Source: Hornefia butyriciproducens | GTDB taxonomy: Bacteria; Bacillota; Clostridia; Peptostreptococcales; Anaerovoracaceae | DNA: 64,000 nucleotides | Assembly (NCBI RefSeq): GCF_009695915.1 | Contig: NZ_VUMZ01000010.1 | Location: forward strand, 1 to 64,000 | Direction: 5' to 3' | Shown here: positions 5,777 through 5,902 of the stretch, one piece after another | Position numbering within the stretch: position 1 is the stretch's first letter | Layout of the letters: every line of letters starts with the position of its first letter | Translations under genes and position numbers: made by a program | The notes under the pieces: model-generated | What the model saw: only the letters and a program-made list of their open reading frames with translations | What the model was told of the DNA's origin: nothing | Databases searched by the model: none

Positions 5777-5869
5777 TGTCTGTCTGTCTGTCTGTCTGTC
5801 TGTCTGTCTGTCTGTCTGTCTGTCTGTCTGTCTGTCTGTCTGTCTGTCTGTCTGTCTGTCTGTCTGTCT
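5777..5869 (-). repeat. Tetranucleotide tandem repeat (TGTC)23
   Basis: Twenty-three uninterrupted copies of TGTC at 5777-5868 plus one base (GACA units on the minus, transcribed strand). The tract begins four bases after the -10 box of the minus-strand promoter, so its first units should include the transcription start. Uninterrupted tetranucleotide tracts of this length are prone to slipped-strand length change. An apparent open frame of repeating SVCL on the plus strand is a by-product of the repeat. Confidence 0.97.
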
Positions 5870-5873
5870 AAAG

Positions 5874-5902
5874 ATTATCGATTTTGGTGACATCGCTGTC
5901 AA
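5874..5902 (-). promoter_or_regulatory. Sigma-A promoter of the pilus leader
   Basis: On the minus strand TTGACA (5897-5902), 17 bases, GATAAT (5874-5879): near-consensus. The start point would fall at about 5867, within the first units of the GACA repeat. Confidence 0.8.

Follow-up and report, generated by a model that had tools for sequence, protein, structure and literature searches.

What does a long tetranucleotide repeat do in front of a sortase-pilus operon? In the window analyzed here, i.e. the whole stretch of 64,000 nucleotides from Hornefia butyriciproducens, the forward-strand (TGTC)n reads as (GACA)23 on the minus strand, and it is located 361 nt upstream of the pilus operon, the pilin ATG of which is at 5416. 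The tract has a TRF score of 187, and TRF reported no other array with a unit of up to 6 bases in the window. An earlier note had described a near-consensus promoter TTGACA-17-GATAAT that faces the pilus genes and, just past its -10 box, 23 perfect tetranucleotide units. Both observations are confirmed: the tract comprises exactly 23 units (5868–5777), and the promoter-like element, here termed P2, matches the consensus at 11 of 12 positions, reads toward the pilin ATG and is the best of four promoter matches in the region. The gap between the -10 box and the tract, given as four bases, is CTTTA and has five bases, or four when its A is counted as tract. The features are compiled in Table 1.

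Table 1 Features of the pilus leader and operon in the window (T1 and T2 are predicted structures).
Feature	Position	Strand	Basis
P1, candidate upstream promoter, TTGAAA-17-TAAATT, TG before the -10 (weak)	5937–5965	-	9/12 matches
Shine-Dalgarno-like AGGAAAGGGG	5903–5912	-	read directly
P2, TTGACA (5902–5897), 17 nt, GATAAT (5879–5874), overlaps leader start	5874–5902	-	11/12 matches
Leader ORF, 39 codons, stop TGA at 5776–5774	5774–5893	-	translation
(GACA)23 tract	5777–5868	-	read directly, TRF
T1, small hairpin; 5′ arm = last repeats (GACAGAC), 3′ arm GUUUGUC, then AUUUUU	5763–5784	-	predicted
T2, strong intrinsic terminator, about -34 kcal/mol, 23 pairs, T6 tail	5673–5732	-	predicted
Stop TAG used with 22 or 25 units, apical part/loop of T2	5704–5706	-	frame analysis
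Major pilin/backbone (GramPos_pilinBB, SpaA, LPXTG)	3833–5416	-	Pfam
Sortase	2857–3699	-	Pfam PF04203
Sortase	1910–2785	-	Pfam PF04203
Second pilus subunit (FctA/Spy0128-like isopeptide domain)	796–1905	-	Pfam PF12892

On the minus strand the elements follow each other in the order AGGAAAGGGG, TTGACA, GCG, ATG...GATAAT, CTTTA and (GACA)23. The ATG at 5893–5891 sits behind AGGAAAGGGG at 9 nt, and its frame is open through the entire repeat; translation yields MSPKSIIF, eight codons that precede the tract, followed by RQTD repeats. The tract is therefore part of an ORF led by a putative ribosome-binding site, which may speak against its lying in untranslated RNA. Because the unit of 4 nt is not divisible by 3, each copy gained or lost shifts the frame in which a ribosome would leave the tract. 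The three exit frames have their stops 3, 8 or 73 nt past the tract, and T2 is predicted at 44–99 nt past it, between the leader and the first pilus gene. With 23 units the leader stop lies immediately past the tract, and with 23 or 24 units it lies within 8 nt and leaves T2 free. The earlier note had suggested that unit number could act without touching a reading frame. This is not supported, since the leader stop moves from the tract end (23 units) to the terminator loop (22 or 25 units) in a conserved layout of ORF and terminator. Other reading frames were considered and rejected: (GACA)n contains no start codon, a start in the ATGACATAG directly following the tract would give two codons only, and the opposite-strand ORF 5653–5871 with VCLS repeats has no comparable context and was judged spurious.

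We propose that (GACA)23 probably works as a contingency switch that is located within the gene of a leader peptide and attenuates the pilus operon. From the sequence, the frames, the predicted structures and their recurrence in other genomes we infer translation, termination and slippage. An mRNA starting upstream, at about 5930, would carry the Shine-Dalgarno sequence, the ATG at 5893, the eight codons and (GACA)n. With 23 units, as assembled, or with 24, the ribosome would stop early, T2 would form and transcription would not extend to the pilin gene (OFF). If the tract has 22 or 25 units, the ribosome would reach the TAG within T2, the hairpin would be disrupted and the polymerase would read into the operon (ON).

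Leader attenuation of this kind is already known. A leader-peptide attenuator with GCAGA repeats is described for pil1 and pil3 of Streptococcus gallolyticus (Danne et al. 2014, PMC3894217); for pil1 its logic was shown experimentally, with a mapped start site that lies upstream of the repeats. The pil1 locus and the locus described here share a sortase pilus operon, simple sequence repeats in a short leader ORF that has a ribosome site, a unit length that is not a multiple of 3, an intrinsic terminator before the pilin genes and a frame that sets the leader stop either short of or inside the terminator. In contrast to pil1, the unit here is GACA instead of GCAGA, the repeats also form the 5′ arm of the first hairpin, a -35/-10-like element, which is undescribed there, lies over the leader start with the tract at its start site, and the layout recurs across Clostridia before many kinds of genes. 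In contingency genes of the Haemophilus influenzae type a tetranucleotide tract is located in the structural gene, where slippage changes the frame (PMC2651432). The repeat class and the frame shift by slippage are the same, but in the proposed switch it is a leader whose frame would affect transcription; the (GACA) tracts located within hsdS, methyltransferase genes and others resemble the H. influenzae type more closely. In open PMC papers we found neither (GACA) leaders of Clostridia nor promoters at contingency repeats described.

The strongest competing explanation concerns the start of the transcript. If RNA started only at P2, the leader ATG at 5893 would precede the transcript. P1 is located upstream of this ATG; because it is weak, with only 9/12 consensus matches, and P2 scores higher with 11/12, the tract may still contain the principal 5′ end, in agreement with the earlier note. 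The RNA would then start at P2, and the tract would be an untranslated 5′ end whose length tunes start-site choice, stability or folding. P2 is the best match in the region with the tract at its expected start, and tetranucleotide tracts in 5′ untranslated regions affect expression elsewhere. In uspA2 of Moraxella catarrhalis an (AGAT)n tract is located in the untranslated 5′ region, upstream of the main start; as in uspA2, a tetranucleotide tract lies here in the transcribed region between a promoter and a surface-protein gene, but here it is within a leader ORF and followed by a terminator. We consider a start at P2 unlikely as the basis of the switch, because it leaves the Shine-Dalgarno sequence, the start codon and the conserved frame pattern unexplained, because such RNAs would enter T1 and T2 untranslated, and because the same element also occurs well inside coding genes, where a 5′ untranslated region would make little sense. 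The arrangement also differs from switches with repeats in the promoter spacer, as the tract starts 5 nt past the -10 hexamer and not between -35 and -10.

The layout of a translated leader followed by a terminator is found well beyond this locus. The loci were divided into 98 of leader type and 42 inside long ORFs. The leader set from genome contigs had been selected for TTGAC and was used only for features outside that pattern; Shine-Dalgarno sequence, start codon and terminator were absent from every search pattern. A Shine-Dalgarno sequence with a start codon and an open frame into the tract was found in 73/98 leader loci, which are partly related and not independent, compared with 13–20 at slid positions and 8–20 in shuffles; in 25/98 no recognized combination of the two was present. 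An ATG alone was found in 63 of the 98 (2–12 in controls), and upstream promoters with at least 10/12 matches in 32/96 leader loci compared with about 5 in shuffles. Terminators of -10 kcal/mol or stronger starting 20–90 nt past the tract were predicted in 51/67 loci, and in 1–4 after three dinucleotide shuffles. Their median start is 48 nt and their median end 94 nt past the tract, with a median energy of -25.6. In 50 of these 51 terminator loci there is at least one short frame and at least one frame reaching the hairpin (null 38), and exactly two reaching frames and one short frame were found in 36 (null 17). Some tracts without terminator open into the structural gene, e.g. into an acyltransferase-like frame, which corresponds to ordinary frame switching.

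T1 could itself be the terminator, formed by repeats and anti-repeat, so that unit number would alter its efficiency without leader translation and the tract would act as spacer or hairpin element. T1 directly follows the tract here and at many loci, and in (GCAGA) leaders its 3′ arm becomes TCTGC and matches the unit. However, the 3′ arm pairs with the last units at any unit number, so that tract length hardly alters T1, and T2 is predicted to be a much stronger structure, with a position that varies far less. We consider such a role of T1 improbable.

In the same genome a second tract, (GACA)26, has TTGACA-17-GACAAT ahead of it and, behind it, a small hairpin and then another stem-loop. This second leader (L009, 6393–6496 and following on contig C24) has no obvious target gene, and mobile-element-like sequence with TnpV-like and helix-turn-helix fragments lies 3′ of its terminator; it is possibly an orphaned switch. 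A homologous leader of the sister species (L013) precedes a secreted phosphodiester-glycosidase-like gene. The sister species has three (GACA) tracts, one of which, (GACA)36, is located before a homologous pilin with its own Shine-Dalgarno sequence, ATG and stem-loop. In the remaining 15 genomes of the genus no such tracts were found, though some of them have pilin homologs. When 350 family genomes were searched without any promoter condition, 30 loci were obtained from 23 genomes; they lie ahead of genes for secreted or surface proteins, or else within hsdS and further genes. One family member has a (GCAGA)11 leader in which the order of Shine-Dalgarno sequence, TTGACA, ATG and tract is the same and the T1 arm is altered to the unit. 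From a promoter-anchored scan that covered 85,000 species, at least 117 stretches were obtained, mostly from Clostridia and Erysipelotrichaceae, with Peptoniphilaceae and a Lactococcus also among the stretches listed. A mechanism known from one Streptococcus species is thus extended to a Clostridia-wide class of predicted switches; in bacteria of the gut, the rumen and the oral cavity these precede genes for pilins, LPXTG proteins and further surface proteins, and surface heterogeneity could be predictable from repeat number alone.

P2, the tract and a terminator also make up a complete small transcription unit. P2 could be the working promoter of a short terminated RNA, (GACA)n-T1, which acts in trans or as a decoy while the pilus operon is driven from elsewhere. 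This leaves unexplained that the same TTGACA spacing is seen for tracts within coding genes, be it at their 5′ end or further inside, and we regard such a role of P2 as very improbable.

Variation was assessed by comparing tracts across genomes and at duplicated loci whose 45-nt flanks are identical or nearly so. Unit counts differ between such tracts: 26, 32 and 35 (L012–L014), 13 and 9 (L088, L095), 16 and 20 (L233, L256) and, for (GCAGA) tracts, 10, 9 and 24 (L550, L554, L562). These differences agree with the earlier note in that the tract 5′ of the pilus genes is slippage-prone and very probably phase-variable. A fixed or neutral microsatellite without regulatory effect is hardly credible, given the conserved position, terminators and surface-gene context and the differing unit numbers between (nearly) identical flanks. 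In one genome (L041) two near-identical (GACA) leader modules with 32 and 35 units are located 9.6 kb apart (1921772 and 1931364) and represent a duplicated switch with divergent downstream sequence.

A further regularity concerns P2 itself. An exact TTGACA, in most cases with a -10-like hexamer, stands some 31 nt before many tracts of the units GACA, GACC, AGCA and GCAGA, both in leaders and in hsdS and phage genes, and does so 30–100 times above expectation. The rule thus depends little on the repeat unit or on the gene. The support for this rule comes from unconditioned sets only and not from the TTGAC-selected leader set. In the unconditioned family search, TTGACA (at least 5/6) with a -10-like hexamer 16–18 nt further on precedes 27/30 tracts, a frequency that excludes a chance origin of the pairing of P2 and tract. 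TTGACA also precedes all three new, likewise unconditioned, loci of the phylum, and in viral contigs it lies 28–38 nt upstream at 69/106 unconditioned loci. Exact TTGACA was counted at 26–36 nt from the maximally extended tract, with the rate further upstream as expectation, and was found at 57/106 GACA tracts (expected 0.94), 9/62 GACC tracts (0.13), 9/48 AGCA tracts (0.31) and 13/42 GCAGA tracts (0.13). Pointing in from the other tract end, it was found at 2/100 GACA, 0/60 GACC, 0/48 AGCA and 0/42 GCAGA tracts. Because only 1/52 CAAT tracts (expected 0.14) and 1/18 GACT tracts have it, the rule is not general to all tetranucleotides or lineages. Tracts with TTGACA are longer for GACA (p = 0.009), GACC (p = 0.00015) and GCAGA (p = 0.0004), with no significant difference for AGCA (p = 0.19). 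In bacterial loci the spacing of the -10-like NANNNT peaks at 17 (19/28), and in phage genes this hexamer is weaker; its presence at 16–18 nt in 28/31 non-GACA loci makes a -35-only element without -10 less likely.

The hexamer is not a copy of the GACA unit, as it also precedes AGCA and GCAGA tracts. Its origin as a by-product of protein motifs (KYLT, LLTF) was rejected on the basis of homolog controls. Of the phage PAPS reductase copies with (GACA) tracts, 10/12 contain TTGACA, compared with 2/34 of those without, and both of these two carry (GACC) tracts. Among hsdS copies without (GACA) tract TTGACA is present in 2/43, both with other repeats, one being (GAAC)n at the same 31-nt distance and one (GA)n at a different distance. 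TTGACA furthermore occupies differing codon frames in different genes, and judging from these comparisons a protein-level coincidence appears unlikely.

An element of the P2 type cannot by itself yield a translatable leader and also occurs well inside coding genes; what its occurrences have in common is therefore the repeat and not gene expression. We hypothesize that P2 is not the productive promoter of the operon but affects the expansion or instability of the repeat in cis. More generally, we tentatively consider it possible that a sigma-70-type promoter (TTGACA, 16–18 nt, NANNNT) is a cis-acting mutator that places GACA, GACC, AGCA or GCAGA in the initiation bubble, so that repeats in Clostridia and phages arise or stay unstable whatever the unit, the gene or the use of the transcript. 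In the simplest mechanism, initiation would open the DNA at the repeat start and favor slippage or expansion. Alternatively, there may be a conserved use of the P2 transcript, or both roles together. The rule did not turn up in the literature searched, and its mechanism is what we infer. That repeats of several units lie about 31 nt past a perfect -35 hexamer in unrelated genes suggests a possible reason for the location of contingency repeats; transcription initiation may drive their instability.

Several other loci are of interest. In viral contigs (L164–L272) (GACA) tracts are located inside genes that we take, from their sequence and not via Pfam, to be PAPS-reductase-like and C5-methyltransferase-like; these genes appear to be phase-variable and to serve DNA modification in phages of Clostridia. 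In PAPS homologs without GACA, (GA)n, (AT)n or (GACC)n is present at about that position. In L197, (GACA)24 is found in an apparent reverse-transcriptase domain (YLVQL-tract-GLPIGNLTSQ...YVRYGDDF), possibly a phase-variable reverse transcriptase. Two adjacent epimerase-like genes (L021 and L655, at 5264 and 6323 of their contig, C75) end in (GACA)11 and (GCAGA)5, the latter without TTGACA and with a perfect TATAAT just before the tract. Two (AGCA) tracts of 20 and 166 units in viral contigs (L489, L501) also have TTGACA between Shine-Dalgarno sequence and ATG; their sequence looks Pasteurellaceae-like, and the rule may extend beyond Bacillota. In the window, a 1260-aa surface-type protein with Listeria-Bacteroides repeats is encoded directly upstream of the pilus leader (6178–9960, minus strand), and its gene apparently ends in its own stem-loop near 6131–6103. 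A 60-bp tandem repeat at 11716–11865 forms a low-complexity insert within ORF 11594–13288, which resembles a chorismate-binding (PABA/anthranilate synthase) gene.
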